A DNA stretch of 45,861 bases from Limibacillus sp. Lineage in GTDB: Bacteria > Pseudomonadota > Alphaproteobacteria > Kiloniellales > CECT-8803. Shown piece by piece: positions 19,353 through 40,080 of the stretch. The position numbers and the translations under genes are program-made. Location of the stretch: contig JARRJC010000020.1 in the NCBI GenBank assembly GCA_037379885.1, positions 1 through 45,861 of the forward strand. The letters are read 5' to 3'. Under the pieces are notes generated by a model. The model did no database searches and was not told the DNA's origin. It saw nothing but the letters and a program-made list of their open reading frames with translations. Numbering within the stretch: position 1 is the stretch's first letter; each line of letters begins with the position of its first letter.

Positions 19353-19362
19353 GGAGACGGTC

Positions 19363-21834
19363 ATGAGCGGCATTCCCACCCAGGCCCGCGTCGTCATCAT
19401 CGGTGGCGGCGTGATCGGCTGCTCGGTCGCCTACCACCTGACCCAGCTCGGCTGGCAGGACGTGGTGCTGCTGGAGCGCAAGCAGCTTACCTCCGGCACC
19501 ACCTGGCATGCCGCCGGTCTGATCGGCCAGCTGCGCGCCACCTACAACATGACCAGGCTCGCCAAGTACTCGGCCGAACTCTACCGCTCGCTGGAGCAGG
19601 AGACGGGCGTCGCCACGGGCTTTCGCCAGCACGGCTCGCTGGCGCTGGCGCTTTCCGACGACCGCATGGAGGAGCTGTCGCGCGGCGCCTCCATGGCCCA
19701 CACCTTCGGGCTGGAGGCCGAGGTTCTGAGCGCGGAGGCCTGCGGCGATAAATACCCGCTGGTTTCCCTCGACGGGGTCAAGGGCGGCGTGTTCCTGCCG
19801 ACCGACGGGCAGGCCGATCCGGCCAACATCGCGCTGGCGCTGGCCAAGGGCGCGCGCAACCGGGGCGCCAAGGTCTTTGAGAACGTGAAGGTCACCGGCG
19901 TGCGTCAGGACAAGGGCCGCGTCACCGGGGTCGAGACCGACCAGGGCCCGATCGAAGCGGAGTACGTCGTGAACTGCGCGGGCATGTGGGGCCGGGAGGT
20001 GGGCGCCATGGCCGGTGTTTCCGTGCCGCTGCACGCCTGCGAGCACTTCTACATCGTGACCGAAGCGGTGGAGGGCCTGCCCGGCAATCTGCCGGTGCTG
20101 CGGGTCGCCGATGAATGCGCCTACTACAAGGAGGACGCGGGCAAGATCCTGCTGGGGGCCTTCGAGCCGAACGCGAAGCCCTGGGGCATGGAGGGAATCC
20201 CGGAAGACTTCTGCTTCGACCAACTGCCCGAGGACTTCGACCACTTCGAGCCGATCCTGGAAAAGGCCGTGGCGCGCATGCCCAAGCTCGCCGAGGCGGG
20301 CATTCACACCTTCTTCAACGGGCCGGAGTCCTTCACCCCCGACGACCGCTACCTACTGGGCGAGGCGCCGGAGTTGAAGAATTTCTATGTCGCCGCCGGG
20401 TTCAACTCCATCGGCATCCAGTCGGCGGGCGGCGCGGGCAAGGCACTGGCCGAATGGATGGAGGGCGGCGAGCCGCCCTACGACCTCTGGGACGTGGACA
20501 TCCGGCGCATGCAGCCCTTCCAGGCGAACCGCAGCTATCTGAGCGAGCGGGTCAGCGAGACCCTGGGCCTGCTCTACGCCGATCACTATCCCTACCGCCA
20601 GTACGCAACATCGCGGGGCGTACGTACGTCACCCTTGCACGACCGGCTGGCTGAACGGGGCGCTTGCTTCGGCGAGGCGGCGGGCTGGGAGCGGGCCAAC
20701 TGGTTCCTGCCCCCGGAGGCCGCCGCCAAGGGCGAGACGGCGGAGTACCGTTATTCCTGGAAGCGCCAGAACTGGTTCGACTACGCCGCCGCCGAACACC
20801 GTGCGGTGCGCGAGGGCGTCGGGCTTTTCGACATGACCTCCTTCGGCAAGATCCGCGTCGAGGGGCGCGATGCGGAGGCCGTGCTTCAGCGGCTCTGCGC
20901 CAACGATGTCGCGGTCGAGCCCGGCCGTCTGGTCTATACACAGTGGCTGAACGAGCGCGGCGGGATCGAGGCCGATGTCACGATCACCCGCTTGTCCGAG
21001 ACCTCCTTCCTGGTGGTGACCCCCGGCGCGACGCTCAGGCGCGACCTCTCCTGGCTACAGCGCCACACGCCGGAGGAGGCGCACTGCGTCGCCATCGACG
21101 TGACCGCCGCCGAGGCCGTGATCTGCGTCATGGGCCCCAAGTCGCGAGACCTGCTCCAGGCCTTGACGCCGCAGGACCTGGGCAACGACGCCTTCCCCTT
21201 CGCCACGGCGCGGGAGATCGAGATCGGGCAGGGTCTGGCCCGTGCGCACCGCATCTCCTACGTCGGTGAACTGGGCTGGGAGCTGTACGTGTCAAGCGAC
21301 ATGGCCGTTCATGTGTTCGACTGCATCGCCGAGCGCGGCCAGGACAGCGACCTGGCCTTCTGTGGACTGCACGTACTGGACTCCTGCCGTATCGAGAAGG
21401 CCTTCCGCCATTTCGGCCACGACATCACCGACGAGGACCATGTCCTGGAAGCCGGTCTCGGTTTCGCGGTCAAGACGGACAAGCCCGCCGGAGCCTTCGG
21501 CGATTTCCTGGGCCGCGAGGCGGTCCTGAAGAAGAAGCAGAGCGGCCTGGCGCGGCGGCTGGTGCAGTTCAAGCTCAAGGATCCCGAACCGCTGCTCTAC
21601 CACAACGAGCCGATCCTGCGGGACGGCAAGATGGTCGGGCGGCTCACCTCAGGCAACTACGGGCATTGGCTGGGCGGGGCCATTGGTCTCGGCTACGTGC
21701 CCGCCGAGGAAGGCGAGGACGCCAAGACCCAGTTGAGCTCAAGCTACGAGATCGAGGTGGCGGGAACGCGGGTTCCCGCCGAGGCGTCGTTGAAGCCGCT
21801 CTACGATCCCAAGGGCGAGCGCGTGAAACTGTGA
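19363..21834 (+). CDS. dimethylglycine/sarcosine dehydrogenase-like flavoenzyme (FAD + GcvT domains), second copy
   Basis: An 823-residue paralogue of the preceding gene with the same three-part architecture. FAD motif VVIIGGGVIGCSVAYHL, covalent-flavin motif TSGTTWHAAG (His49), C-terminal GcvT half with MTSFGKIRVEGRDAEAVLQR, SYVGELGWELYVSSD, LDSCRIEKAFRHFGHDI and LTSGNYGHWLGGAIGLGYV. The two neighbours are distant enough in sequence to suppose successive rather than redundant steps. A sarcosine- or dimethylglycine-type substrate is likely but cannot be read from the sequence. A strong ribosome-binding site (GAGGAGACGG) lies before the ATG at 19363, ten bases after the upstream stop. It is 52 bases before the MttB-family gene, so the three genes probably make one message. 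Confidence 0.93.
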   Translation: MSGIPTQARVVIIGGGVIGCSVAYHLTQLGWQDVVLLERKQLTSGTTWHAAGLIGQLRATYNMTRLAKYSAELYRSLEQETGVATGFRQHGSLALALSDDRMEELSRGASMAHTFGLEAEVLSAEACGDKYPLVSLDGVKGGVFLPTDGQADPANIALALAKGARNRGAKVFENVKVTGVRQDKGRVTGVETDQGPIEAEYVVNCAGMWGREVGAMAGVSVPLHACEHFYIVTEAVEGLPGNLPVLRVADECAYYKEDAGKILLGAFEPNAKPWGMEGIPEDFCFDQLPEDFDHFEPILEKAVARMPKLAEAGIHTFFNGPESFTPDDRYLLGEAPELKNFYVAAGFNSIGIQSAGGAGKALAEWMEGGEPPYDLWDVDIRRMQPFQANRSYLSERVSETLGLLYADHYPYRQYATSRGVRTSPLHDRLAERGACFGEAAGWERANWFLPPEAAAKGETAEYRYSWKRQNWFDYAAAEHRAVREGVGLFDMTSFGKIRVEGRDAEAVLQRLCANDVAVEPGRLVYTQWLNERGGIEADVTITRLSETSFLVVTPGATLRRDLSWLQRHTPEEAHCVAIDVTAAEAVICVMGPKSRDLLQALTPQDLGNDAFPFATAREIEIGQGLARAHRISYVGELGWELYVSSDMAVHVFDCIAERGQDSDLAFCGLHVLDSCRIEKAFRHFGHDITDEDHVLEAGLGFAVKTDKPAGAFGDFLGREAVLKKKQSGLARRLVQFKLKDPEPLLYHNEPILRDGKMVGRLTSGNYGHWLGGAIGLGYVPAEEGEDAKTQLSSSYEIEVAGTRVPAEASLKPLYDPKGERVKL

Positions 21835-21886
21835 CGATGCGAACCAAAGAGAATTTCGAGGAAACCCTGTTATTAGGAGTCCGGCC

Positions 21887-23455
21887 ATGACAGCCGAACA
21901 AGAGCTCCCCACCGAAAGCCGCCGCCGGGGCGGCCGCGAGGCCCGCCGGGCCTTGCGCGCAGCACCGCTGGCCGAAGACATCAAGCCGATCCGTCCCGGC
22001 ATGGAGGGCGGCACCTACAAGGCGCTCGACGAGGCCGGGATCCAGCGCATCCACGCGGCGGCGCTGGACGCCCTGGAGCAGATCGGCCTCGGCCAACCCA
22101 TCCCTTCCTGCGTCGAGTACTGCGAAGCGGCGGGCGCGAAGCTGGGCGACGACGGACGCCTGCGATTCCCCCGCGCCATGATCGAGGACACGCTCGCCAA
22201 GGCGGGCCGGGGCTTCACGCTCTATGGCCGGGACGAGGCCTTCGACATCCATCCGGGCGGAACGCGGGTCCACTATGGGACCGCGGGCGCCGCCACCATG
22301 ATGGTGGATGTGGCCGAGCCCGGTTATCGCAACGCCACGGTCAAGGATATGTACGATGCCGCACGGATTGTTGAGGTCCTCGACAACGTGCACTTCTTCC
22401 AGCGGCCCATGACGCCCTGCGACGTGGAGGACCTGCTGGAGCTGGACATCAACACGCTCTATCCGGCGCTGGCCGGCACGCGCAAGCACGTGGGCTGCTC
22501 CTTCACGGTCGGCGAGAACATGGAGACGGTCTTCGATCTGCTCCATCAGGTCGCCGGGAGCGAGGCGGCCTGGCGCGAGCGGCCTTTCGTCTCCAACTCC
22601 AACTGCTTCGTCGTCCCGCCCATGAAGTTCGCCGAGGACGCCTGCCGGGTGCTGGAGGCCTGCGTGCACGGCGGCATGCCGGTGCTGCTGCTCTCGGCGG
22701 GACAGGCCGGGGCGACGGCGCCACCGGCGCTGGCCGGGGCGGTGGTGCAGGCGACGGCGGAAGTGCTGGGCGGCCTCGCCTACGTCAACGCGATCAAGCC
22801 GGGCGCGCCCGCGATCTTCGGCACCTGGCCCTTCGTCTCGGACCTGCGGACCGGCTCCATGTCGGGCGGCTCCGGCGAACAGGCTCTGCTGAGCGCCGCC
22901 TGCGCCCAGATGGCCCAGTTCTACGACCTGCCGGGCGGCGCCGCCGCCGGCATGGCAGACTCCAAGCTGCCGGACATGCAGGCCGGGTGGGAAAAGGGGA
23001 TCTCCAACGTCATGGCGGGCCTCTCGGGCCTCAACATGGTCTACGAGGCCGCGGGCATGCATGCCTCCCTGCTGGGGTTCTGCTTTGAGACCCTGATCCT
23101 GGACAACGACCTGATCGGTCAGTGTCAGCGCTGCGTGCGCGGCATCGAGGTGACGGAGGATTCAGTCTCGCTGGAGGTGATACGGAACGTCTGCACGGAA
23201 GGGCCCGGCCACTACCTGGGCCACGAGGCGACCCTGACCCTGATGCAGCGCGACTACGTCTATCCGGAGATCGGCGACCGCACGAGCCCCAAGGAGTGGG
23301 TCGAGAAGGGCAAGCCGGACCTCGTCGAGACGGCCAGCGCCCGCAAGCGTGAGATCCTGGAGGGCGCGCACCCGCGCCACATTTCCAGCGAGCTCGACGG
23401 GCGGCTGCGCGAGCAGTTCCCAATCAAGCTGCGCCGCTCGGAAATGGGCTGGTAG
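21887..23455 (+). CDS. MttB-superfamily methyltransferase, non-pyrrolysine type
   Basis: A 522-residue protein of the trimethylamine methyltransferase (MttB) superfamily, a TIM-barrel that moves a methyl group from a quaternary or tertiary amine. Recognisable segments are LDALEQIGLGQPIPS, IHPGGTRVHYGTAG (124-134), LLSAGQAGATAPPALAGAVV, and SGGSGEQALLSAACAQMAQFYDLP split around 326-349. In pyrrolysine enzymes the Pyl sits in an A-G-O-S-D-A-K context; here the aligned segment is AAGMADSK with Met356, an ordinary ATG codon, so it belongs with glycine-betaine-type relatives such as MtgB. Those donate to a corrinoid protein, and none is encoded in this window. It has a TAGGAGT ribosome-binding site. 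Substrate and acceptor are unknown; a betaine is the best guess. Confidence 0.92.
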   Translation: MTAEQELPTESRRRGGREARRALRAAPLAEDIKPIRPGMEGGTYKALDEAGIQRIHAAALDALEQIGLGQPIPSCVEYCEAAGAKLGDDGRLRFPRAMIEDTLAKAGRGFTLYGRDEAFDIHPGGTRVHYGTAGAATMMVDVAEPGYRNATVKDMYDAARIVEVLDNVHFFQRPMTPCDVEDLLELDINTLYPALAGTRKHVGCSFTVGENMETVFDLLHQVAGSEAAWRERPFVSNSNCFVVPPMKFAEDACRVLEACVHGGMPVLLLSAGQAGATAPPALAGAVVQATAEVLGGLAYVNAIKPGAPAIFGTWPFVSDLRTGSMSGGSGEQALLSAACAQMAQFYDLPGGAAAGMADSKLPDMQAGWEKGISNVMAGLSGLNMVYEAAGMHASLLGFCFETLILDNDLIGQCQRCVRGIEVTEDSVSLEVIRNVCTEGPGHYLGHEATLTLMQRDYVYPEIGDRTSPKEWVEKGKPDLVETASARKREILEGAHPRHISSELDGRLREQFPIKLRRSEMGW

Positions 23456-23464
23456 CGCCGCTGC

Positions 23465-25885
23465 CTATCCGACGAAGCGGAGCTGCTTGACCGGGCGGCC
23501 GGGCGCCATGGCCGCGGCCGCCGCGGCGATGTTGTCCGCGTCGATGCCGTAGTGGTGGTAGAGGTCGGCGATGGTGCCGGTCTGGCCGAAGTGCTCGACC
23601 CCCAGGCTCACCGCCCGGTGCCCGTAGACGCCGGACAGCCAGGAAAGCGTCGCCGGGTGGCCGTCGATCACGGTCACCAGCGTGCAGTGCGGCGGCAAGC
23701 CCGCCATCAGGCGCTCGACATGGCTGAGTGCATCGGCCTGCCCGCGGATGCGCGCGCGCTGCGCGGCCTGCCAGCCCGCGTTCAGGCGGTCGGCCGAGGT
23801 AACGGCCAGTACGCCGACGTCGCGCCGATCTTCCCCGATCATCCCGGCGGCGGTGATGGCTTCGGGCGCGATCACGCCCTGATAGGCGATCACCACTTCG
23901 CAGTTGGGGCCGGGTTCGCGCAGCCAGTAGCCGCCGTCGATCACGCCCTGGGTGAACTCTTCCGTGACCGGGCGGGAAATCTGCTCCAGCGGACGGGTCG
24001 AAAGCCGCAGGTAGACGGAACCTCCGGTCTCGTCGCGAAGCCAAGTCCGCTCGTTCGGATCGCCCTCCCCATCGCGCTGCATGTAGTCGAAGGCCCAGTG
24101 CATGATCAGCGACAACTCATCGGCATAGGCCGGCTCGAAGGAGGCGAGCCCGTCCTGGGAGAGGCCGATGAGCGGCGAGGCGACAGACTGATGCGCCCCG
24201 CCCTCCGGGGCCAGGGAAACCCCGGACGGCGTTGCGACCAGGAGAAAGCGTGCATCCTGGTAGCAGGCGTAGTTGAGCGCATCGAGACCGCGCGAAATGA
24301 AGGGATCGTAGAGCGTGCCGATCGGCAGCAGCCGCTCGCCGAACAGCGAGTGCGACAGCCCCGCGGCCCCCAACAGAAGGAAGAGGTTCATCTCCGCGAT
24401 GCCCAGTTCGATGTGCTGGCCTTCGGGCGCGAAGTGCCACTTCTGGGCGCTGGGGATGCGCTCGTCGCGGAAGGTGTCGGCGATGGCGTCGCGCGCGAAG
24501 AGGCCGCGGCGGTTGACCCAGGGACCGAGGTTGGTGGAGACCGTGACGTCGGGCGATGTGGTCACGATGCGCTCGGCCAGCGCGCTGTCGCCGCGCGCCA
24601 GCTGATCCAGCACCTTGCCGAAGGCGGCCTGGGTCGCGATCACCTTCTCGTCGATCATGACCGGCGCTTCCGCCGCCACCGGCGCGGCTTCCAGACGGCG
24701 CCGGCCCTCGGCGTTGAAGGGCACGGTCTCCAGGAAGCTCTTGAGCTCCGATTCAGGTTGGGAGAGGCCCTCGAACGGGTCCCACTCGTGGCCCTTGCGG
24801 ACCTGCATCTGCTGGCGGAAACCCTCCATCTGGTCGGGCGTCATGAGACCCGCATGGTTGTCCTTGTGCCCCGCCAGCGGCGTGCCCCATCCCTTGACGG
24901 TGTAAGCGATGAAGACCACCGGGCGGTCGTGGTCGACGCCCTCGAAGGCCTCGGTCACGGTCTCCAGGCAATGGCCGCCCAGGTTCGCCATCAACTCGGC
25001 GAGCTGCCCGTCGCTGCGCTTCTCAAGGAGCGCGGTGACCGGGCCCTGATCGCCGATCTCGTCCATCAGGCGCTTGCGCCAAGCAGCACCCCCCTGGAAC
25101 ATCAGGGCGGAATAGAGCGGGTTGGGACAGCTGTCGATCCAGGCCTTCAGCTTCTCTCCGCCCGGCTCGGCGAAGGCTTCACGCTGAAGCGCGCCGTACT
25201 TCAGGGTGATCACGTCCCAGCCGAAGGCGCGGAACACGCCCTCCAGGCGGTCGTAGAGTCCCTCGCGCACCACGCCGTCGAGGCTCTGGCGGTTGTAGTC
25301 GATGATCCACCAGGTGTTACGCAGGCCCTGCTTCCAGCCTTCCTGAAGGCATTCGTAGATGTTGCCCTCGTCGAGCTCGGCGTCGCCGACCAGGGCGATC
25401 ATGCGGCCCTCCGCCCGGTCCTTCGACCAGCCCTTGGAGCGCACGTAGTCCTGAATGAGCGAGGCGAAGGCCGTGATCGCCACGCCGAGACCCACGGAGC
25501 CGGTCGAGAAATCGACGTCGTCCACGTCCTTGGTGCGGCTGGGGTAGGACTGCGCGCCTCCGAACCCGCGGAAGGTCTCCAGCTTCTCGCGCGTCTGGTG
25601 GCCGAGGAGGTACTGGATGGCATGGAACACAGGCGAGGCGTGCGGCTTGACCGCGATGCGGTCCTGCGGCCGGAGAACCCGGAAATAGAGCGCGGTCATG
25701 AGCGTGACCATCGAGGCGCAGGACGCCTGATGCCCGCCGACCTTGATCTCGTCCTTGGGACGCAGGTGGTTGGCGTTGTGGATGGTCCAGGAGGCGAGCC
25801 AGAGCACCTTCTGCTCCAGCGCCTTCAGGGTGGTCATGCCCGCAAGCTTCTTGGTTCGGGTTTTGGTCATGCTGTTCTTGGTCAT
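23465..25885 (-). CDS. transketolase/AceE-like thiamine diphosphate enzyme
   Basis: An 806-residue homodimeric-E1-type thiamine diphosphate enzyme. The TPP motif is VGDAELDEGNIYEC (166-179) closing at IIDYN (Asn198), about 30 residues on. VKPHASPVFHAIQYL (79-93) and GAQSYPSRTKDVDDVDFSTGS (split at 110-130) are typical of AceE and of a clade often annotated transketolase in alphaproteobacteria. The pyrimidine-binding and C-terminal domains follow (about 430-800, with LGIAEMNLFLLLG). AceE proper needs E2 and E3 partners, which are absent here. The relative MdeB, an AceE-type 2-oxobutyrate dehydrogenase E1, is also paired with an Lrp-type regulator, so a 2-oxoacid substrate is possible. Start ATG at 25885; residues 6 and 17 are alternative starts. 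Its end is 9 bases from the MttB-family stop. Confidence 0.88.
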   Translation of the reverse strand: MTKNSMTKTRTKKLAGMTTLKALEQKVLWLASWTIHNANHLRPKDEIKVGGHQASCASMVTLMTALYFRVLRPQDRIAVKPHASPVFHAIQYLLGHQTREKLETFRGFGGAQSYPSRTKDVDDVDFSTGSVGLGVAITAFASLIQDYVRSKGWSKDRAEGRMIALVGDAELDEGNIYECLQEGWKQGLRNTWWIIDYNRQSLDGVVREGLYDRLEGVFRAFGWDVITLKYGALQREAFAEPGGEKLKAWIDSCPNPLYSALMFQGGAAWRKRLMDEIGDQGPVTALLEKRSDGQLAELMANLGGHCLETVTEAFEGVDHDRPVVFIAYTVKGWGTPLAGHKDNHAGLMTPDQMEGFRQQMQVRKGHEWDPFEGLSQPESELKSFLETVPFNAEGRRRLEAAPVAAEAPVMIDEKVIATQAAFGKVLDQLARGDSALAERIVTTSPDVTVSTNLGPWVNRRGLFARDAIADTFRDERIPSAQKWHFAPEGQHIELGIAEMNLFLLLGAAGLSHSLFGERLLPIGTLYDPFISRGLDALNYACYQDARFLLVATPSGVSLAPEGGAHQSVASPLIGLSQDGLASFEPAYADELSLIMHWAFDYMQRDGEGDPNERTWLRDETGGSVYLRLSTRPLEQISRPVTEEFTQGVIDGGYWLREPGPNCEVVIAYQGVIAPEAITAAGMIGEDRRDVGVLAVTSADRLNAGWQAAQRARIRGQADALSHVERLMAGLPPHCTLVTVIDGHPATLSWLSGVYGHRAVSLGVEHFGQTGTIADLYHHYGIDADNIAAAAAAMAPGRPVKQLRFVG

Positions 25886-25921
25886 GCCGCGCTCTTCTAT
25901 GCCCAGGGTTTCTCTACGCTC

Positions 25922-25991
25922 GGCAGATCATGCCAGAAGCAGCGGGACAGGTCTTTGCGATCTTCCGGTAATTTTTGTAAATCTCTGGCAT
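25922..25991. promoter_or_regulatory. candidate Lrp-type operator between the divergent genes
   Basis: The 126-base divergent gap holds an inverted pair, ATGCCAGA at 25930-25937 and TCTGGCAT at 25984-25991, with centres 54 bases apart, about five helical turns. The left arm overlaps a small palindrome, GGCA-N5-TGCC, at 25922-25934. Widely phased inverted sites suit a multimeric Lrp/AsnC protein acting on both genes. No binding data; low to moderate confidence. Confidence 0.4.
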
Positions 25992-26011
25992 ATTCTGCTA
26001 ATCTTGCCGAC

Positions 26012-26470
26012 ATGGACGCAATAGATCGCCGAATCATCGGGGCGTTGCAGGAGAATGCGCGCCTCACCAACCAGGAACTGGCCGAGCGGGTGGGGCTGTC
26101 GCCCTCGCCCTGTCTGAGACGCCTGCGTAAGCTGGAGGCCGACGGGATCCTGCGCGGCTATACGGCCCTGATCGACCAGCAGCGCTACGGCCTGCCGATC
26201 AACGTCTTCGTCTCGATCCGGCTGGAGCGTCAGACCGACGCGGCGATCCGCGCCTTCGAGCAGGCGATCCAGGACCTGGACGAGGTGCAGGAGTGCTACC
26301 TGATGACCGGGGCGCGCGACTATCTGCTGCGCGTGGTCAGCCAGAGCCTGGAGTCCTACGAGCGCTTCGTGCGCGAGCGCCTGACCCGGATCGAGGGCAT
26401 CGCCTCCATCGAGTCCTCCTTCGCCTTCAATCAGGTCAAGAAGAGCCCCCGCCTGCCGCCGCCGGCGTGA
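26012..26470 (+). CDS. Lrp/AsnC-family transcriptional regulator
   Basis: A 152-residue regulator. An N-terminal helix-turn-helix (1-60) is typical: MDAIDRRIIGALQENARLTN, ELAERVGLSPSPCLRRLRKL and GILRGYTALID. The C-terminal RAM domain (about 65-145), which binds amino acids or 2-oxoacids and drives oligomerisation, contains EVQECYLMTGARDYLLRVV. The ATG at 26012 gives the standard family length; a much longer open frame extends upstream, but it is antisense to the thiamine enzyme gene. It is divergent from that gene across a 126-base gap holding an inverted repeat, which makes it the probable local regulator. Its 3' end converges with the DUF1028 gene at 26496. Confidence 0.95.
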   Translation: MDAIDRRIIGALQENARLTNQELAERVGLSPSPCLRRLRKLEADGILRGYTALIDQQRYGLPINVFVSIRLERQTDAAIRAFEQAIQDLDEVQECYLMTGARDYLLRVVSQSLESYERFVRERLTRIEGIASIESSFAFNQVKKSPRLPPPA

Positions 26471-26480
26471 GGGAATCAGG

Positions 26481-26510
26481 TCACTCGTCGCCCGGTCATT
26501 CGTCCCCCGG
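26481..26510. repeat. 15-bp tandem duplication at the 3' end of the DUF1028 gene
   Basis: Two adjacent 15-base units, 26481-26495 and 26496-26510, match at 13 positions. On the minus strand each encodes Pro-Gly-Asp-Glu followed by a TGA stop, so the last four codons and the stop of the DUF1028 gene occur twice. It looks like a small tandem duplication that has since gathered two changes; translation ends at the first stop. Confidence 0.6.
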
Positions 26511-27170
26511 CACCCCGTAGCTGGGGGCCTTGGTGGGGTCCAGCGCGCGGGTCACGTAGTCCTCAAGCTGAGGTTTGTAGAGCCGCCAGAGTTGGGCCAG
26601 CTCTTCGATGGGGTCGCCCTCGCTCCAGTCGACGCGCAGGTCGGCCACGGCCCAGTCCACGTCGTCCACGATCATGAGGCCCGCAGAATGCAGCGGCCCG
26701 GCCTCGCCGCCCGCCGCGAGCCCCGCTTGCATGGCCGCCACCAGCCGGTCGCCCAGGTGCCCGGAGGCGCCCTCGAAGGCCTCGACCAGGGCCGCGGGCA
26801 CCCCCTCGTTGTCCAGCAGGTTCCCGGCGGCCACCGCGTCCCAGCCCTCCGCCATGGCGTGGGTGCCCAGCGTGTGCTGGCCGGAAAAGCCCGCCGTCAC
26901 GCCCTTGGCGTCGATGGCGATCAGCTGGCGGTATTCGATGTTGGGCGAGGCCGTCACCACCGCGCCCAGCGCCTGCTTGGCGTCGGCCCCGGTGATCATC
27001 ATGTCGAGCGTCAGGCCGCCCAGCTTTGGATCGGTGATGTTCTGGCTGGCGACCGCGCCGACGCCCGCCCGCGCGGAGGCGCAGCGCGCCGCCACGGCGG
27101 GGGAGGAAGAAGAGACGGCCAGCCCCAGCATCCCGGTTTCGGCGCAGCGCGCGCAAAGCGAAAAGGTCAT
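26496..27170 (-). CDS. DUF1028 family protein (Ntn-hydrolase-like)
   Basis: A 224-residue cytosolic protein of the DUF1028 family, whose members have an Ntn-hydrolase-like fold and mostly unknown substrates. The beginning is typical: TFSLCARCAETGMLGLAVSS, ARAGVGAVASQNITDPKLGG, then ASPNIEYRQLIAIDAKG and the GTHAMAEGWDAVAAGNLL segment. The length is complete. Its ATG overlaps the stop of the dioxygenase gene (ATGA, 27167-27170), so the two are translationally coupled. It is the last gene of the putA operon. Such proteins are often found with RidA and amidohydrolases in amino-acid-derivative pathways, so an amide or lactam hydrolase role is possible but unproven. Confidence 0.92.
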   Translation of the reverse strand: MTFSLCARCAETGMLGLAVSSSSPAVAARCASARAGVGAVASQNITDPKLGGLTLDMMITGADAKQALGAVVTASPNIEYRQLIAIDAKGVTAGFSGQHTLGTHAMAEGWDAVAAGNLLDNEGVPAALVEAFEGASGHLGDRLVAAMQAGLAAGGEAGPLHSAGLMIVDDVDWAVADLRVDWSEGDPIEELAQLWRLYKPQLEDYVTRALDPTKAPSYGVPGDE

Positions 27171-28045
27171 GCGGCGGGCTCCTTCTCAGCCGCCGCCTGT
27201 TGCTCGAAGAAGGACGCGCCCGACGGCAGTTCCGGCAACTCCATCTCGAAGGTCTGGGAGCGTACGCGGCCCCGGTCCACGCCCCGCAGCAGCATGCCCT
27301 CGTAACGGCTGGGCATGGGATTGGGCGAGAGCGGTCGCGCATCGGCGGCGGCGTAGACCGAGATGAAGAGCGTGCGCGGGCTCTGGGTCCGGTTGGCGGC
27401 GGAGCCGTGCAGCAGGCGCGTGTGCATCAGGCAGGCGCCGCCCGCGGGCGCCGTCACCGTGACCGCCGCGCGCCGGGCCTCGGCGGCAACCTCCTCGCTC
27501 ACCTGGCCGGTGAAACGCCCGGCGTGCCAGAGACTGTGAAGCGGACCCCGGTGGCTGCCCGGCACCACTTCGAGCGCGCCGTTCTCCGCCGTCATCTCGT
27601 CCACGGCCAGCAGGCTGGTCACCAGATCGTCGTTGCTGTGCGGCGTGAAGCAGAAGTCCTGATGAAAGCCGACGGCGGTCACGCTGCCCGGCTGCTTGGC
27701 GTTGATCTTGGCGTGATGGAAGCGCAGGTCGGGACCGATCAGCTCGGCCACGGCGTCCACCTGATAGGCCTCGCTGGCGGCTTCGAAGTAGGCCAGCGAG
27801 ACCTCAAGCGGCGCGTTGACCCGGCGCAGCGCGGGATGATCGGGCCCATGACTGGGATCGAGGTCGAAGCGCGGCTTGCCGTTGACGGTCTCCCCGTAGT
27901 TCTGCGACTGGCTGCGGCTTTCCTCGATCCAGGCGGCCATGTCCTCGCGAAGCAGGTCCAGCAGCTTCGGCGTCACGGCCTCTTCGATGACGAGGTAGCC
28001 GTCGCGCTCGAAGGCGGTCTTCTGCTGCTCGCTCAGATGGCGCAT
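27167..28045 (-). CDS. phytanoyl-CoA dioxygenase (PhyH) family protein
   Basis: A 292-residue Fe(II)/2-oxoglutarate-dependent oxygenase of the PhyH family. Metal ligands are visible: His128 and Asp130 in GFHQDFCF and a distal His213 in LLHGSAANRT; Arg224 in SPRTLFIS is placed to bind the 2-oxoglutarate carboxylate. The opening FERDGYLVIEEAVTPKLLDL is the usual N-terminal element of the family. Members hydroxylate amino acids, betaines, ectoine or lipids, so substrate cannot be told. Being in an operon with putA, RidA and DUF1028 points to a proline- or amine-derived compound. It starts seven bases after the RidA stop and overlaps DUF1028 by four bases. Confidence 0.92.
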   Translation of the reverse strand: MRHLSEQQKTAFERDGYLVIEEAVTPKLLDLLREDMAAWIEESRSQSQNYGETVNGKPRFDLDPSHGPDHPALRRVNAPLEVSLAYFEAASEAYQVDAVAELIGPDLRFHHAKINAKQPGSVTAVGFHQDFCFTPHSNDDLVTSLLAVDEMTAENGALEVVPGSHRGPLHSLWHAGRFTGQVSEEVAAEARRAAVTVTAPAGGACLMHTRLLHGSAANRTQSPRTLFISVYAAADARPLSPNPMPSRYEGMLLRGVDRGRVRSQTFEMELPELPSGASFFEQQAAAEKEPAA

Positions 28046-28052
28046 GACGGCA

Positions 28053-28478
28053 TCACTCCTCCGGGATCACGGCGATGACGTCGACCTCGACCAGCCATTC
28101 GGGCCGGGCCAGCGCGCTCACCACCAGACCGGTCGAGACGGGGTGCACGCCCTTCAGCCAGCGGCCCACCTCCCGATAGACCGCCTCGCGGTAGCGGGGA
28201 TCGACGATGTAGATGGTGATCTTGCAGATGTGGCCGAGCTGGGAGCCCGCCTCCTCCAGCAACTGCTTGATGTTCGCCATGGCCTGACGCGTCTGGCCTT
28301 CCGGATCGCCAATGGCGACCGATTCGGAGGTCTCGAGATTCTGGCCGATCTGGCCGCGCACGAAGACCATCTGGCCCTTGGCGACCACCACCTGGCAGAG
28401 GTCGTTGTCCAGCTTCTGCTCCGGGTAGGTCTCGCCGGTGTTGAACTTTCGGAAGCGCTTGTGGGGCATCGGGATCAA
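28053..28478 (-). CDS. RidA family protein (YjgF/YER057c/UK114)
   Basis: A 141-residue cytosolic trimeric protein of the RidA family, which hydrolyses reactive enamines/imines released by PLP and flavin enzymes. The typical strand FVRGQIGQNLETSESVAIG, the helix QTRQAMANIKQLLEEAGSQL, then HICKITIYIVDPRYREAVY and the end WLVEVDVIAVIPEE are visible. Start ATG 28478 (residue 4 is an alternative). It may remove imines made by proline dehydrogenase (delta-1-pyrroline-5-carboxylate chemistry) or by the nearby demethylases. It precedes the dioxygenase by seven bases and is separated from the cupin gene by a 115-base gap holding a hairpin. Confidence 0.93.
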   Translation of the reverse strand: MIPMPHKRFRKFNTGETYPEQKLDNDLCQVVVAKGQMVFVRGQIGQNLETSESVAIGDPEGQTRQAMANIKQLLEEAGSQLGHICKITIYIVDPRYREAVYREVGRWLKGVHPVSTGLVVSALARPEWLVEVDVIAVIPEE

Positions 28479-28533
28479 GCCATCATCTGTTTTTCAGTGG
28501 TGTTCTCGGGGGTGTTCTTGGGGGGCGCCCATC

Positions 28534-28566
28534 GCTTTTCTCCCGCCGCGAACGGCAGGGAAAAGC
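28534..28566 (-). other. hairpin in the gap between cupin and RidA genes
   Basis: Arms GCTTTTC...GCCG and CGGC...GAAAAGC pair around a CGAA tetraloop, with a small internal bulge. On the minus strand it is followed by GATGGG, not a T-run, so it is not a standard terminator. It lies in the only long gap inside the putA operon and could be a processing or stability element that separates putA-cupin from ridA and beyond. Confidence 0.4.
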
Positions 28567-28593
28567 CTAGGGCCGCGTCTCCGGTCTGTCTAC

Positions 28594-28860
28594 TCAGCGG
28601 GTGGCGACCAGGAAGTGGACGCCCGCCCCGCCCGCCTGCTCGCTGTGGGTCAGTCCGCCGGGCACTTCGCAGGTCTCGCCGGGCGTCAGCCGCTGGTCTT
28701 TCCCCTCCATGCCGACGACCATCTCTCCCTCCAGGATCAGCAGATAGAGATCGCCCTCGTGGGTATGGTCGTCGTTGAGCCGCCCGGCCTCCCAGGTCTT
28801 CTCGACCGCCGGGCTGTAGCCCTTGGCCCGAAGGTCCGCGTGATACTCCTGCTCGGTCAT
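28594..28860 (-). CDS. small single-domain cupin protein
   Basis: An 88-residue cytosolic cupin. The first cupin motif is DDHTHEGDLYLLILEGEM, with His32 and His34, Glu35 and Glu45; the second is PGETCEVPGGLTHSEQAG with His72. Three His and a Glu make a normal metal site. It may be a small enzyme or a sensor; no substrate can be inferred. The ATG overlaps the putA stop codon (28857-28860), so it is translated from the putA message. Small cupins in amino-acid operons often bind pathway intermediates, but this is only a general guess. Confidence 0.9.
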   Translation of the reverse strand: MTEQEYHADLRAKGYSPAVEKTWEAGRLNDDHTHEGDLYLLILEGEMVVGMEGKDQRLTPGETCEVPGGLTHSEQAGGAGVHFLVATR

Positions 28861-31800
28861 GCCGCGACCGCCTCTCCCTTGTCCGCACTGGCCAGGAGTT
28901 GAGCGTTGCCGCCCGCCGCCGTGGTGTCAACGCAAAGCGCGCGTTCGACCATGTAGCTGTAGGGGCTGATCGCCTCGGTGATCAGCGGCAGGATTTCCCC
29001 GTCGCGGCCCGCCAGGGCCTGACGGTAGGGCCGGAGCGCCTCGCCCGCGCCGACCAGCGCGTAGCCGGAGGCGCCCTCGATCGCACCCAGGGCTTCCGCC
29101 GGAACGACGCCTTCCAGGGCCGCGACCGGCGCGCCGGCCTTGGCCAGCGCCTGGGCCAGCGGCTTGCTGCCGGGCGCCGTCATCAGGACGGCGTTGCCCA
29201 TCGCCAAAGCCTGGAGCGCCTGGACCAGCGCGGTCTCTGCGCTGCCGCCCTCCTCCAGACCGCCGAGGCAGACCATCTTGCCGCGCGGATGGAGGCTCAG
29301 GAGGTTGCTCTCCCCGGTCGGGCCGGGCAGCGTCTCGGGCTCCAGCTCCACGCGCCCGGCGGCGGCGAGCGCCGCCTTGGCCGCTTCGGCGAAGGGCGTC
29401 TCCAGGTCGGCGGCCAGCTTCTTCAGGACCGAAACGCGGTCGGCGCGCGCAGCCCAGCCCTCGTGCGACAGCTTGGCGAGCGCCTGTTCCACGCTCTTGG
29501 CGTCCAGCATCTCGCCCGGCTTGCCGCCGCTCTCCTGCGGGGTGAAGTCCTCCTCGGTCTTGCGGAACCGGCGCAGATAGTTGGGTCCGCCCGCCTTCGG
29601 GCCGGTGCCGGACAGCCCCTCGCCGCCGAAGGGCTGGGAGCCGACGATGGCGCCGATCTGGTTGCGGTTCACGTAGACGTTGCCGACCTTCAGGTCCTCG
29701 ACCACGCGCTGCACGCGCTCCTCGATGCGGGTGTGGAGACCGAAGGTGAGGCCGTAGCCGGTGGCGTTGACCGCCTCCACGACCTTCTCCAGATCCTCCG
29801 CCTCGAAGGTGCAGACGTGCAGGATCGGGCCGAAGATCTCCCGCTCCATCTCGTGGATGCCCTTGATCCTGTAGATCGCGGGCGCGACGAAGTGCCCGGC
29901 GCCGAGACCGCCGCCCTTGGGCGGGTCGAGCTTGGCGATCAGGCGGCCTTCCTCTTCCATCTTGCGGCAGTGGGCGAGGATGCCCTCGGCGGCCTCCTCG
30001 TCGATCACCGGGCCGACGTCGGTCGACCAGGCCCAGGGGTCGCCCTGGCGCAGCAGGGTCATGGCGCCCTTCAGCATCTCCATGACGGTCTTCTCAACGT
30101 CCTTCTGGACATAAAGCACGCGCAGGGCCGAACAGCGCTGGCCGGCGCTCTGGAAGGCAGAGGCCACGATGTCCCGCACGGCCTGCTCCGGCAGCGCGGT
30201 GGAATCGACGATCATGGCGTTCATGCCGCCGGTCTCGGCGATCAGGGTGGCGTCGGGCTGGCCCTTCTCGGCCAGTCCCTTATGGATGCGCTGCGCGGTG
30301 TCCGTCGAACCGGTGAAGCAGACGCCGGCGATGCGCGGGTCGGAGACCAGCGGCGCGCCCACGGCGGCCCCGTCGCCGGGCAGCAGTTGCAGCGCGCCCA
30401 GCGGCACGCCGCCCTCGATCATCAGCTGCGCGGCGCGCCAGCCCATCAAGGAGGTCTGCTCAGCCGGCTTGGCGACCACCGCGTTGCCCGCGGCGAGCGC
30501 CGCTGCGATCTGTCCGGTGAAGATCGCCAGCGGGAAGTTCCAGGGCGAGATGCAGGCGAAGACGCCGCGCGCCGAGCCGGGCTCGGAACGCTCGAGCCGC
30601 CGCGCCTCGTTCGCGTAGAAGCGCAGGAAGTCGACCGCCTCGCGCACCTCGGCCACGCAGTCGAGCTGGATCTTACCCGCCTCGCGGCTGGCGAGCGCGA
30701 AGAGCTCGGGCGCGTTCTCCTCATAGAGATCGGCGACCTTCTCCAGAATCTCAGCGCGCTTGTCGGCGCCCAGCGCGTCCCAGGCGGGCTGCGCCTCGGC
30801 GGCGGCGGCGATGGCGGCCTCGACCTCTTGCGGGCTGGCATCGCGCACGCTGCCGACCCGTTCTTCGGGGCGGGAGGGATTGCGAATCTCGCGGGTCTCG
30901 CCCTGGGCGGCGCCCTTGGCGGCCAGCAGCGGCTCAGCCTTCCACTCGCCGGTCAGGAAGGGGCGGCGCGCTTCTTCCAGTTCGCGCATGGTGGTCACAT
31001 CGGTGATGTCCCAGCCCTTGGCGTTCCTGCGCGCCGCGCCGTAGAGATCGGCGGGCCGGGTGATGTAGGGGTTGGCGATCTGGTCGCCCATCTTCTCCAA
31101 CGCCTCCAAGGGATCGGCGGCGATGGTCTCGGGCGGCACGCGCTCATCGACGATCTGGTTGACGAAGGAGGAGTTGGCCCCGTTCTCCAGCAGGCGGCGC
31201 ACCAGATAGGCCAGAAGGTCGCGGTGCGCGCCGACCGGCGCATAGATGCGGCAGCGCGTCTTGCCCTTCTTCTTGACCAGTTCGTGCAGCGCCTCGCCCA
31301 TGCCGTGCAGGCGCTGGAACTCGAAGGCCTTCGGATCGTCGGCCATCTCCAGGATCGCGGCGGCGGTGTGCGCGTTGTGCGTGGCGAACTGCGGGTAGAT
31401 GCGGTCGGTCATGGAGAGCAGCTTGCGCGCGCAGGCGATGTAGGAGACGTCGGTGTTGGTCTTGCGCGTGAAGACGGGAAAGCCGTCGAGACCCATGACC
31501 TGGGCGCGCTTGACCTCGGTGTCCCAATAGGCGCCCTTGACCAGGCGCACCATGATCTTGCGGTCCAGCCGCTCGGCCAGATCGTAGAGCCAGTCCAGGA
31601 CGTACCAGGCGCGCGGGCCGTAGGCCTGCACCACCACGCCGAAGCCATCCCAGCCTTCCAGCGCGGGATCGGACAGCACCTCCTCGATGATGTCGAGCGA
31701 GAGGTCGAGGCGGTCGGCCTCCTCGGCGTCCACGTTGAAGCCCATGTTGGCCGACTGCGCGAGGGTCGCCAGCGACAGCACGCGCGGGGCGAGCTTGTCC

Positions 31801-32579
31801 TGCACGGCCTCCTTCTGGCCCATCTCGTAGCGCGGATAGAGCGCGGAGAACTTGACCGAGATGCCGGGGTTGTCGCGCACCTCGCCCTTGCAGGCCTTGG
31901 CGATGCCGGAGATCGCATCGGAGTAGGAGAGGTGATAGCGGCGGGCGTCGGCCTCGGTCCGGGCCGCCTCGCCCAGCATGTCGTAGGAATAGCTGTAGCC
32001 CTTGCCCTCCAGTTTCTCGGCGCGCTCCATCGCCTCTTCGATCGTGCGGCCCAGCACGAACTGCTGGCCCATCTGGCGCATAGCCTGTCCGACGGCGGTG
32101 CGCACCACCGGCTCGCCAAGGCGCCGCACCATGCCGCGCAGCGTGCGGCTGAGGCCGCGCTCCTCGCCCTCGCTCAGCACCTGGCCGGTCAGCATCAGCG
32201 CCCAGGTCGAGGCGTTCACCAGGGTCGAGCTGGAGTGGCCCATGTGCCGCTCCCAATCGGCCGGGCCGATCTTGTCCTGGATCAGCTCGTCGATGGTCTC
32301 CGCGTCGGGCACGCGCAGCAGCGCCTCGGCGAGGCACATCAGCGCGATGCCCTCCTTGGAGGAGAGGCCGTATTCGTTGAGGAAGGACTCCATGGTCCCG
32401 TGCGCGCCCTTGGCGCGCAGCTCGCGGATCAGGGCGGCGGCCTCTGCCGAGATCGACTTGCGCTGCTCGTCCGAGAGACCGGCTCTGGCCGCCAGGTTGC
32501 GCACCGCTTCGGCCTCGTCCGGCAGGTAGTGCTGACGAATGGCCTCTCTCAAGTCGGCGGCGGGGCGGTTGCTGGTCAT
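28857..32579 (-). CDS. putA: bifunctional proline dehydrogenase / glutamate-semialdehyde dehydrogenase
   Basis: A 1240-residue PutA, oxidising proline to delta-1-pyrroline-5-carboxylate and then to glutamate with FAD and NAD. The proline dehydrogenase barrel (about 180-475) has MVRLVKGAYWDTEVKRAQ, PQFATHNAHT, FEFQRLHGMGE and RIYAPVGAHRDLLAYLVRRL. The aldehyde dehydrogenase (about 560-1000) has ISPWNFPLAIFTGQ, CFTGSTDTAQRI, catalytic Glu782 (AETGGM) and Cys816 (SAGQRCSALR). Residues past 1005 form the extra domain of long PutAs. The N-terminus lacks the ribbon-helix-helix DNA-binding domain of enterobacterial PutA, so it does not repress itself; the divergent PutR supplies control. Electrons go to the membrane quinone pool. 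It leads the operon with cupin, RidA, dioxygenase and DUF1028. Confidence 0.97.
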   Translation of the reverse strand: MTSNRPAADLREAIRQHYLPDEAEAVRNLAARAGLSDEQRKSISAEAAALIRELRAKGAHGTMESFLNEYGLSSKEGIALMCLAEALLRVPDAETIDELIQDKIGPADWERHMGHSSSTLVNASTWALMLTGQVLSEGEERGLSRTLRGMVRRLGEPVVRTAVGQAMRQMGQQFVLGRTIEEAMERAEKLEGKGYSYSYDMLGEAARTEADARRYHLSYSDAISGIAKACKGEVRDNPGISVKFSALYPRYEMGQKEAVQDKLAPRVLSLATLAQSANMGFNVDAEEADRLDLSLDIIEEVLSDPALEGWDGFGVVVQAYGPRAWYVLDWLYDLAERLDRKIMVRLVKGAYWDTEVKRAQVMGLDGFPVFTRKTNTDVSYIACARKLLSMTDRIYPQFATHNAHTAAAILEMADDPKAFEFQRLHGMGEALHELVKKKGKTRCRIYAPVGAHRDLLAYLVRRLLENGANSSFVNQIVDERVPPETIAADPLEALEKMGDQIANPYITRPADLYGAARRNAKGWDITDVTTMRELEEARRPFLTGEWKAEPLLAAKGAAQGETREIRNPSRPEERVGSVRDASPQEVEAAIAAAAEAQPAWDALGADKRAEILEKVADLYEENAPELFALASREAGKIQLDCVAEVREAVDFLRFYANEARRLERSEPGSARGVFACISPWNFPLAIFTGQIAAALAAGNAVVAKPAEQTSLMGWRAAQLMIEGGVPLGALQLLPGDGAAVGAPLVSDPRIAGVCFTGSTDTAQRIHKGLAEKGQPDATLIAETGGMNAMIVDSTALPEQAVRDIVASAFQSAGQRCSALRVLYVQKDVEKTVMEMLKGAMTLLRQGDPWAWSTDVGPVIDEEAAEGILAHCRKMEEEGRLIAKLDPPKGGGLGAGHFVAPAIYRIKGIHEMEREIFGPILHVCTFEAEDLEKVVEAVNATGYGLTFGLHTRIEERVQRVVEDLKVGNVYVNRNQIGAIVGSQPFGGEGLSGTGPKAGGPNYLRRFRKTEEDFTPQESGGKPGEMLDAKSVEQALAKLSHEGWAARADRVSVLKKLAADLETPFAEAAKAALAAAGRVELEPETLPGPTGESNLLSLHPRGKMVCLGGLEEGGSAETALVQALQALAMGNAVLMTAPGSKPLAQALAKAGAPVAALEGVVPAEALGAIEGASGYALVGAGEALRPYRQALAGRDGEILPLITEAISPYSYMVERALCVDTTAAGGNAQLLASADKGEAVAA

Positions 32580-32652
32580 GGCGGCACTCCTTCCTTAATC
32601 CAAGCATGGTAGCGTGGCAGATGCGCGAAGTTAGGGCATCGTCAGAAGGCGT

Positions 32653-32674
32653 ATTTCCCAATTTGTTCAGAAAT
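32653..32674. promoter_or_regulatory. candidate PutR operator
   Basis: An inverted pair, ATTTC at 32653-32657 and GAAAT at 32670-32674, lies in the 149-base gap between putA and putR, within an AT-rich stretch (TATATT occurs about 15 bases further on). Short imperfect sites of this sort are common for Lrp-type regulators. Inference only. Confidence 0.3.
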
Positions 32675-32728
32675 CCAGTCGAAACGTCTATATTGAGAGG
32701 CATCAGAGAAACATCAGGGCTACAGTTC

Positions 32729-33187
32729 ATGAATATATCAGGCCAATTGGATCGCATTGACCGGAAGATTCTGACCGAACTTCAGGCCGAAGGCCGCCTG
32801 CCCATCACCGGTCTGGCCGAGCGGGTGGGCCTCTCCAAGACGCCCTGCCAGCAGCGGGTCAAGCGGCTGGAGGAGGCAGGCTACATCCGCGGTTACGCCG
32901 CGCTGCTGGACCTGGAAAAGCTGGGCGCGGGCCACGTCGCCTTCGTCGAGGTCAAGCTCAACGACACGCGGGCCCAGGCGCTGGCGGCCTTCAACAAGGC
33001 GGTGCTGCGCCTGCCCGAGGTGGAGCAGTGCCACATGATCGCCGGCGACTTCGACTACCTCTTGAAGGTGCGCACCCGCGACATCGCGGAATACCGGCGC
33101 GTCCTGGGCGAAGCGCTCTCGGCCTTGCCGCATGTCGCCAACACCTCCACCTTCGTGGTGATGGAGAGCGTGAAGGAACGCGTGTGA
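32729..33187 (+). CDS. putR: Lrp/AsnC-family regulator of proline catabolism
   Basis: A 152-residue Lrp-family activator, divergent from putA; this arrangement is the standard one for alphaproteobacterial PutR, which activates putA in response to proline. The helix-turn-helix reads LDRIDRKILTELQAEGRLPI, LAERVGLSKTPCQQRVKRLE and GYIRGYAALLD. The RAM domain contains EVEQCHMIAGDFDYLLKVRT. The ATG at 32729 gives the normal length; the open frame continues upstream 41 codons into the intergenic region and is not preferred. The 149-base gap to putA holds the candidate operator. The N-terminus MNISGQLDRIDRK agrees with the family. Confidence 0.93.
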   Translation: MNISGQLDRIDRKILTELQAEGRLPITGLAERVGLSKTPCQQRVKRLEEAGYIRGYAALLDLEKLGAGHVAFVEVKLNDTRAQALAAFNKAVLRLPEVEQCHMIAGDFDYLLKVRTRDIAEYRRVLGEALSALPHVANTSTFVVMESVKERV

Positions 33188-39288: not shown

Positions 39289-40080
39289 CTAGTCGGCGTA
39301 GTCCGGCTCTTCCAGATCCAGGATCGCCTTCAGCTCCTCCAGATGTTCGCGCGGGAAATCGCTGTCGATCCCCTCCCACTGGCGCGCGGTCTTCTCGGCG
39401 ACCTCGTCGCTGGCGACCCGTAGCGGAATCCCGGTGGCGAGCGCCGTCAGGTAGGTGCGGCAGGCCCGCTCAAAGTGGTAGAGGCGGTCGAAGGCTTCGG
39501 CGGTGTCGCGCCCGAAGGCCATGACGCCGTGGTTGGCCAGCACCAGGATCGGCTTGTCGGGATCGGCGGCGCGGGCCACCCGCTCGGCCTCGTCGCCGAG
39601 CCCCATGCCGTCGAAGCCCTCGTCCACGGTCATGCGCCTGAAGAACCGCATGGAGGTCTGGTCGATCGGCGGCAGCACGCAGTCCTGCAGAACCGAAAGC
39701 GCCGTCGCGTAGTGCGAATGGACGTGCAGCACGCAGCGGATCTGCGGATGGTTCCGGTGGATCGCACCGTGCAGCGCCCAGGCGGTGGGGTCCAGCTTGT
39801 CGCCATCCGGTCCGCCGTTCTCGGCGGCGGCGTCGATCAGCAGCATGTCGCTGGCCTTCAGGCGCGCGAAATGCCGGCTGCCGGGGTTCATCAGGAAACG
39901 CCGTCCCTCGGCGTCGACGGCCAAGCTGAAGTGGTTGGCCACGGCCTCGTGCATATCGAGGCGGGCGGTCCAGCGGAAAGCGGCGGCGAGATCGCGCCGC
40001 TCCTCGGTCAGGGACTGGTTGTGGGTCGGGTCGAAGGGCAGGGCCGACCCCTGCTCTGACTTTGACAAAGAACCGGACAT
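39289..40080 (-). CDS. class II aldolase/adducin family protein
   Basis: A 263-residue protein of the class II aldolase/adducin family, zinc enzymes that cleave or epimerise small hydroxy-acids or sugar phosphates. Metal ligands can be seen: LHVHSHYATALS (His119, His121 and His123 are candidates) and ANHGVMAFG further on. The N-terminus (DLAAAFRWTARLDMHEAVAN) is the usual first helix. No sugar-phosphate-specific motif was evident, so a non-sugar role (such as adducin-like decarboxylase) is open. It is 30 bases upstream of ppk2 and 75 bases beyond the molybdoenzyme stop, all on the minus strand. Ordinary length for the family. Confidence 0.9.
   Translation of the reverse strand: MSGSLSKSEQGSALPFDPTHNQSLTEERRDLAAAFRWTARLDMHEAVANHFSLAVDAEGRRFLMNPGSRHFARLKASDMLLIDAAAENGGPDGDKLDPTAWALHGAIHRNHPQIRCVLHVHSHYATALSVLQDCVLPPIDQTSMRFFRRMTVDEGFDGMGLGDEAERVARAADPDKPILVLANHGVMAFGRDTAEAFDRLYHFERACRTYLTALATGIPLRVASDEVAEKTARQWEGIDSDFPREHLEELKAILDLEEPDYAD

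Follow-up and report, generated by a model that had tools for sequence, protein, structure and literature searches.

The imidazole-4-acetate part of histamine breakdown in Pseudomonas putida U is assigned to hin2, the hinFLHG genes, which lead from imidazole-4-acetate to aspartate in the passages on this pathway of PMC8231116, the only paper in the literature searched that uses the name hinFLHG. Table 3 of PMC6467879 lists HinF as a flavin adenine dinucleotide (FAD)-monooxygenase (EC 1.14.13.5), HinL as an enamine deaminase, HinH as an amidase, HinG as an amidase (EC 3.5.1.8) and HinI as an aspartate ammonia-lyase. We compared this system with three minus-strand genes that lie behind putA and a cupin gene in a 45,861-nucleotide stretch of Limibacillus sp. 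DNA (JARRJC010000020.1; hereafter the window); the stretch makes up the whole of contig C20 in a genome of 3.1 Mb and 128 contigs (G000). The trio encodes a RidA-family protein, a PhyH-family dioxygenase and a DUF1028 protein. We propose, with a probability of roughly 0.6, that two of its genes are HinL- and HinH-like, that the Fe/2-oxoglutarate dioxygenase is an addition, and that the trio belongs to a split module for catabolism of rings of the imidazole-acetate type. This reading is carried by homology, gene order and co-occurrence, and by the fold and the conserved catalytic residues. The stretch is best explained as a composite of two units, putA-Lrp(-cupin) and RidA-PhyH-DUF1028, and the second unit as part of a module, found widely, that breaks down oxidised nitrogen heterocycles and the best described member of which is the hinF-L-H-G route of P. 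putida U.

The RidA gene (28053..28466, minus strand; PF01042) encodes an imine/enamine deaminase of a HinL-like subfamily: it is 66% identical to a Klebsiella and 71% identical to an Arthrobacter RidA, both from hin-like operons. We took the ATG at 28466 as its start; a TTG at 28478 is a possible alternative. The general RidA model TIGR00004 was not reached (55.5 bits versus a cut-off of 106.25). We rejected RutC, the model score falling under its cut-off, and 2-aminomuconate deaminase, for which 6izh was a weak match in the PDB (E 2.4e-6). DUF1028 (26496..27170, minus; 224 aa; PF06267, 206 bits versus 26) lies two genes downstream of RidA, with PhyH between them.

The two plasmid relatives show the layout of such operons. 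The Klebsiella gene order is flavin monooxygenase (FMO)-RidA-DUF1028-argE. The Arthrobacter plasmid carries, in order, genes for an aldehyde dehydrogenase, a primary-amine oxidase, TetR, LysR, an NAD(P)/FAD oxidoreductase (the FMO), RidA, DUF1028, M20 and aspartate ammonia-lyase, a layout that matches the hinFLHG-hinI histamine route of P. putida. Because of this synteny and the described functions, HinH probably corresponds to DUF1028, the P. putida Hin proteins being compared by description. The Klebsiella pneumoniae plasmid CP107226 (L161), typed as mobilizable, has an aldehyde dehydrogenase, a GMC oxidoreductase and a cytosine permease in addition to the hin-like cluster, and 105 Klebsiella plasmid records carry a relative of the window RidA at E<=1e-40, counted by the RidA match alone. 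For Brevibacterium, PMC6467879 gives locus tags that place HinH next to HinL, with HinG elsewhere. A statement in PMC8231116 holds that hin genes were absent from the Gram-positive bacteria sequenced at that time; the PMC6467879 listing, together with the Actinomycetota loci described below, shows that this absence does not hold.

The RidA-DUF1028 module in other genomes

We searched 84,980 species genomes with a profile of the window RidA and used the 80 best of 584 confirmed relatives as loci. Their neighbours were counted by direct tblastn in place of third-position-G+C gene calling, which missed genes in AT-rich loci; DUF1028 was called adjacent within 2.5 kb and other genes were counted within 8 kb. 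The loci span Alpha-, Beta- and Gammaproteobacteria and Actinomycetota. DUF1028 was adjacent to RidA in at least 68 of the 80, a lower bound, as L135 was scored non-adjacent though DUF1028 fragments adjoin its RidA. These 68 loci included an FMO or HpaB-type monooxygenase in 56 cases (FMO 44, HpaB 13), a Rieske oxygenase in 4 and PhyH in 4; in 9 no oxygenase was found in the stretch examined. M20 deacylase was present in 45, LysR in 48 and aspartate ammonia-lyase in 7. The 12 loci lacking an adjacent DUF1028 comprise 10 with PrpD-family genes (L076, L078, L081, L100, L121, L127, L132, L134, L138 and L140, most near an agmatinase-like ureohydrolase) and one with a ureohydrolase (L073).

These counts bear on the view that RidA does generic damage control, clearing the reactive imines of amino-acid oxidation, and that its neighbours are unrelated passengers. 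Rid proteins are known imine hydrolases that often stand beside FAD-dependent amine oxidases, as PMC4433059 says in its part on these enzymes, and relatives of the window RidA do occur in ureohydrolase and PrpD contexts. However, this subfamily is paired with DUF1028 at 68 and with an oxygenase at 59 of the best 80 loci, and the window protein scores under the cut-offs of the general RidA and RutC models. We regard damage control as very improbable.

We then asked which genes accompany RidA across the 61 genomes of the order, using RidA as the marker, a within-family permutation (n=20,000) and gene sets read by hand. Thresholds were placed after gaps in the E-values: <=1e-40 for RidA, <=1e-70 for DUF1028, <=1e-180 for FMO, <=1e-120 for HpaB, <=1e-65 for PhyH, <=1e-200 for PutA and <=1e-100 for MTTB. 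RidA was thereby present in 20 genomes, its threshold leaving out G040 and G056 (~1e-29). DUF1028 was found in 19/20 genomes with RidA versus 0/41 without it (permutation 0/20,000; genus-level Fisher 2.7e-8), FMO or HpaB in 20/20 versus 2/41 (G029 and G040; permutation 0/20,000; genus-level Fisher 3.7e-7) and PhyH in 17/20 versus 4/41 (permutation 0/20,000; genus-level Fisher 9e-4). The association of HpaB alone was weaker (9/20 versus 1/41; permutation 91/20,000). The two controls were not significant: PutA occurred in 19/20 versus 31/41 (Fisher 0.061; within-family permutation 3171/20,000) and MTTB in 15/20 versus 32/41 (p 0.73). Of the 19 genomes with RidA and DUF1028, 17 have the two as neighbours, at most ~1.6 kb apart and sometimes with PhyH or FMO between them; the exceptions, G009 and G033, have them on separate contigs. 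Thus the conservation beyond close relatives that a first-pass annotation of this DNA had made a test of its five-gene set applies to the RidA-DUF1028 core, which is widely kept; the complete set was absent from every other genome searched.

The window's own genome also encodes candidates for further steps. An FMO at C3:70541-71779 is 69% identical to the FMO of L038 and 65% to the Arthrobacter FMO, and no HpaB was found at E<=1e-60. Matches of the M20/ArgE type lie on contigs C4, C73 and C12; two are strong, at 48% and 42%, and the third is weak, at 33%. When the candidates on C4 and C12 were set against M20 proteins of the module, the best pair had 57% identity over 337 residues; one of the three matches may be the ArgE of arginine biosynthesis. 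A contiguous FMO, RidA, DUF1028 and M20 was not found in this genome, as the FMO and the M20 candidates are on other contigs.

Predicted catalytic features of DUF1028 and PhyH

The first-pass annotation had taken DUF1028 for a possible amide hydrolase, and the predicted fold agrees. An AlphaFold model built from 41 sequences had a mean pLDDT of 95.6, and Foldseek returned 2imh as its top match. VIA-align superposed the model on 2imh with Z 32.6 over 214 residues (root-mean-square deviation 2.0), on circularly permuted taspase-1 with Z 17.9 over 191 residues (2.9), and on HslV and proteasome beta chains with Z ~12. Many of the HslV and proteasome alignments begin with model residue 2 at chain residue 1, the catalytic threonine in those chains. 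Removal of the initiator methionine would expose Thr2, a residue shared by 86 of the 87 DUF1028 homologues at the loci retrieved. DUF1028 is therefore predicted to be an N-terminal nucleophile (Ntn) hydrolase with Thr2 at the position of proteasome Thr1. No mention of DUF1028 was found in the literature searched on the present genes; in a 2022 review (PMC9140057), the passage on SPO2555/DUF1028 treats it as a separate Ntn-hydrolase subfamily, uncharacterised and lacking peer-reviewed data.

The PhyH gene (27167..28045, minus; 292 aa; PF05721, 104.5 bits versus 22) encodes a predicted Fe(II)/2-oxoglutarate dioxygenase. H128, D130, H213 and R224 are invariant in 14/14 aligned PhyH sequences, the window's included; by analogy with the family, we take the first three to be the HxD...H triad and R224 to be the 2-oxoglutarate arginine. 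Ectoine hydroxylase was rejected (TIGR02408, 44.2 bits versus a cut-off of 336.5). In the window PhyH lies between RidA and DUF1028, a position that recurs within the order at L035-L039, L050 and L058. At Psychrobacter, Acinetobacter and Granulosicoccaceae loci (L113, L116 and L125) it shares a stretch with the module, partly with FMO or HpaB. Across the class, close PhyH relatives were found in 38/386 genomes. Apart from those of the window and G038 there were 39 places, of which we scanned 28, eight of these over flanks of no more than ~1.5 kb; PutA was found at none of the 28. Among 72,556 plasmid records, the relatives at E<=1e-30 were four distant ones (31-32% identity). A surface check of the literature on pairs among PhyH, RidA and putA returned no relevant-looking paper. 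Taking its places inside and outside the module together, PhyH is a recurrent, optional addition to the module.

This matters for the idea that the trio breaks down another N-heterocycle, for example pyrrole or an imidazole acid other than imidazole-acetate, with PhyH replacing FMO as the ring oxygenase. The oxygenase near RidA-DUF1028 does vary, as the counts among the best 80 loci show, and genomes of the order that carry the module tend to carry PhyH too. However, the window's own genome holds an FMO as well, and PhyH and FMO stand together in one stretch at L038, L113, L125 and L210, so that PhyH looks added rather than substituted. We find this reading doubtful.

putA, the cupin and the proline reading

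The first-pass annotation had described the five genes as a tightly coupled operon, with a derivative of proline as the growth substrate and PutA as its exit. The genes are there with the spacing it gave. putA (28857..32579, minus) encodes a bifunctional proline dehydrogenase/glutamate-semialdehyde dehydrogenase of 1240 aa (NCBIfam NF008869, 1463.5 bits versus 747; four Pfam domains) and shares a 4-base ATGA overlap with a small single-domain cupin gene (28594..28860, minus; 88 aa; Cupin_2, 33.1 bits versus 27.2); a second ATGA overlap joins PhyH and DUF1028, and seven bases separate RidA from PhyH. We consider the five genes real because the best match of each surpassed its curated Pfam cut-off (5/5) and their third-position G+C is 0.89-0.93. 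The coupling is tight inside the blocks, but 127 bp (28467..28593) lie between cupin and RidA; tight coupling therefore means two blocks, of two and three genes. A crude scan of this gap found no promoter-like match on the minus strand and one terminator-like match on the plus strand, the scan total being at chance level. The range to 33187 given for the operon is too long: that span takes in a divergent Lrp/AsnC regulator (32729..33187, plus; AsnC_trans_reg and HTH_24; likely start, judged from sequence), which is no operon member. A regulator 62% identical to it adjoins putA elsewhere in the order (L150), and it is probably a PutR-like regulator of putA.

The first unit is thus a normal proline-catabolism pair, putA and its divergent Lrp-type regulator, plus a lineage-specific cupin. 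At E<=1e-8 the cupin was found in 1/61 genomes of the order, its own; among 386 genomes of the class there were three further, weak relatives (35-41% identity), and no PutA match was found around these within stretches of 2.0-3.3 kb. An assignment of cupin function by relatives was given up, as no relative in the order or class was informative.

That the stretch is not a plain proline operon was rightly seen: an oxygenase, an imine hydrolase and an amide-type hydrolase are all added. The same annotation read the five genes as one pathway for proline betaine, N-methylproline or hydroxyproline, in which PhyH hydroxylates or demethylates, RidA and DUF1028 handle the imine and amide, and PutA is the exit. 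Their common strand, the close spacing inside each block, the MTTB and GCV_T-type demethylases in the window and the proximity of putA to RidA or DUF1028 in two other families (G011 and G033) speak for it. PutA was present in 50/61 genomes of the order, and in 3 of the 19 with both RidA and PutA (G000, G011 and G033) putA lay within 5 kb of RidA or DUF1028; several assemblies are fragmented and true putA distances are partly beyond reach. The distance is ~3 kb at G011:C114 and G033:C35 (L060 and L064), but these are not operons because opposite-strand genes stand between. On the other side, RidA associates with DUF1028, PhyH and FMO or HpaB and not significantly with PutA or MTTB; within the stretches examined at the best 80 RidA loci, neither putA (counted at >=40% identity over 300 residues) nor the cupin was found (0/80); and the 127-bp gap divides the blocks. 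The demethylase link fares no better: of the 37 genomes that have both MTTB and putA, the window's is the one genome in which they share a contig no more than 50 kb apart, and the two were not seen linked in the others. A relative of MTTB, MtgB of marine bacteria, serves glycine betaine in the account that PMC12478193 gives of it. A proline-betaine operon is not supported by this distribution of MTTB and PutA, and a proline-derivative substrate of the trio is unlikely.

The demethylase locus itself lies at 16911-23455 (plus) and comprises two FAD oxidoreductase/GCV_T demethylases followed by MTTB. This MTTB scores below the pyrrolysine-family level (346 versus 525 bits), and the locus looks like an MtgB-type locus for glycine betaine or dimethylglycine. 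These demethylases fit marine-type glycine-betaine demethylation, as outlined in PMC12478193, at least as well as proline betaine. The stretch 23465-26470 holds the gene of an AceE/MdeB-like E1, which scores 173 bits versus the aceE cut-off of 860, and a divergent Lrp regulator at 26012-26470, which converges on the DUF1028 end. Farther along, at 39292-40080 (minus), is a class II aldolase family protein; at Bradyrhizobium, Psychrobacter and Acinetobacter loci (L086, L113, L116 and L117) its relatives are found close to the hin-like genes.

Proposed route and comparison with known systems

Taken together, these results lead us to a route split over several contigs, in which the trio most likely does the ring-opening, deimination and amide steps. 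The HinF-type flavin monooxygenase encoded elsewhere in the genome would oxidise the ring. DUF1028, as a HinH-type N-terminal-threonine hydrolase, would open the cyclic amide produced or cleave the amide formed, and RidA, as the HinL-type enzyme, would hydrolyse a formimino or imine intermediate and free ammonia. An M20 deacylase of the HinG type, also encoded elsewhere, would then take off the formyl group to leave an amino acid such as aspartate. PhyH would add an oxidation that most likely precedes the flavin step or stands in for it. We infer the substrate class, the order of the steps and the role of PhyH, and the trio may be co-transcribed with putA. A more far-reaching version is tentative: DUF1028 might be the HinH-type ring-opening or amide-cleaving enzyme of a fixed RidA-DUF1028-M20 back end whose front oxygenase (FMO, HpaB or Rieske) is exchanged, and in this lineage an Fe/2-oxoglutarate step might have been added and the module might have come under control of the put promoter, so that breakdown of the imidazole ring would be switched along with the supply of proline.

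Several observations weigh against the split imidazole-acetate-type module. The FMO of this genome stands alone on contig C3, with no hin-type neighbours (L145), and neither a module M20 nor LysR was found beside the trio. The closest RidAs in the order, those of G009 (81%) and G010 (80%), adjoin a ureohydrolase and not DUF1028 (L056; L073), and 10 of the best 80 RidA loci have the PrpD context and no DUF1028. On an Ewingella plasmid (L163) a RidA of this subfamily stands with argE, agmatinase and an ABC transporter for amino acids, again lacking DUF1028, which speaks against a single function. The ureohydrolase and PrpD contexts imply two or more pathways for the subfamily. HpaB or Rieske oxygenases can also accompany the module, and the substrate is therefore not fixed as imidazole-4-acetate. 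The equation of HinH with DUF1028 draws on synteny and described function. Clear module genes were found at just 3 of the 28 class PhyH places scanned, and one more has a distant DUF1028. Finally, 3/19 is by rough estimate above chance, which makes a proline link possible; what our reading mainly leaves unexplained is that putA lies so near in three families.

The conserved pairing of DUF1028 with RidA and a ring oxygenase gives one branch of this subfamily a concrete, testable reaction class. If the split module is real, the histamine/imidazole-acetate back end would be more widely distributed and more exchangeable than the hin papers describe. The adjacency of putA makes a proline link a tempting inference, which the comparison across genomes corrects.

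How the locus relates to known systems can be stated gene by gene. The window gene has the full domain set of the PutA of Proteobacteria and differs by the cupin and the RidA-PhyH-DUF1028 trio downstream; we know of no put operon with such a cupin and trio. PhyH belongs to a common family with the ectoine hydroxylase EctD and human PhyH and keeps the Fe and 2-oxoglutarate ligands, but it falls far under the ectoine hydroxylase cut-off. DUF1028 has the same fold and N-terminal threonine as SPO2555 (PDB 2imh), at 27-29% identity. The plasmid of Arthrobacter sp. ERGS1:01 (NZ_CP012478) has a RidA 71% and a DUF1028 51% identical to those of the window; unlike the window, its cluster is complete and contiguous, and no PhyH or PutA is annotated in the stretch. 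Compared with hin of P. putida U, the window differs in having PhyH between RidA and DUF1028, the trio behind putA-cupin, the FMO and M20 on other contigs and no adjacent LysR. As in hin, RidA (the HinL counterpart) has a predicted amidase nearby (HinH; presumably DUF1028 in the window), and the genome holds a HinF-like FMO and an M20 candidate for HinG.

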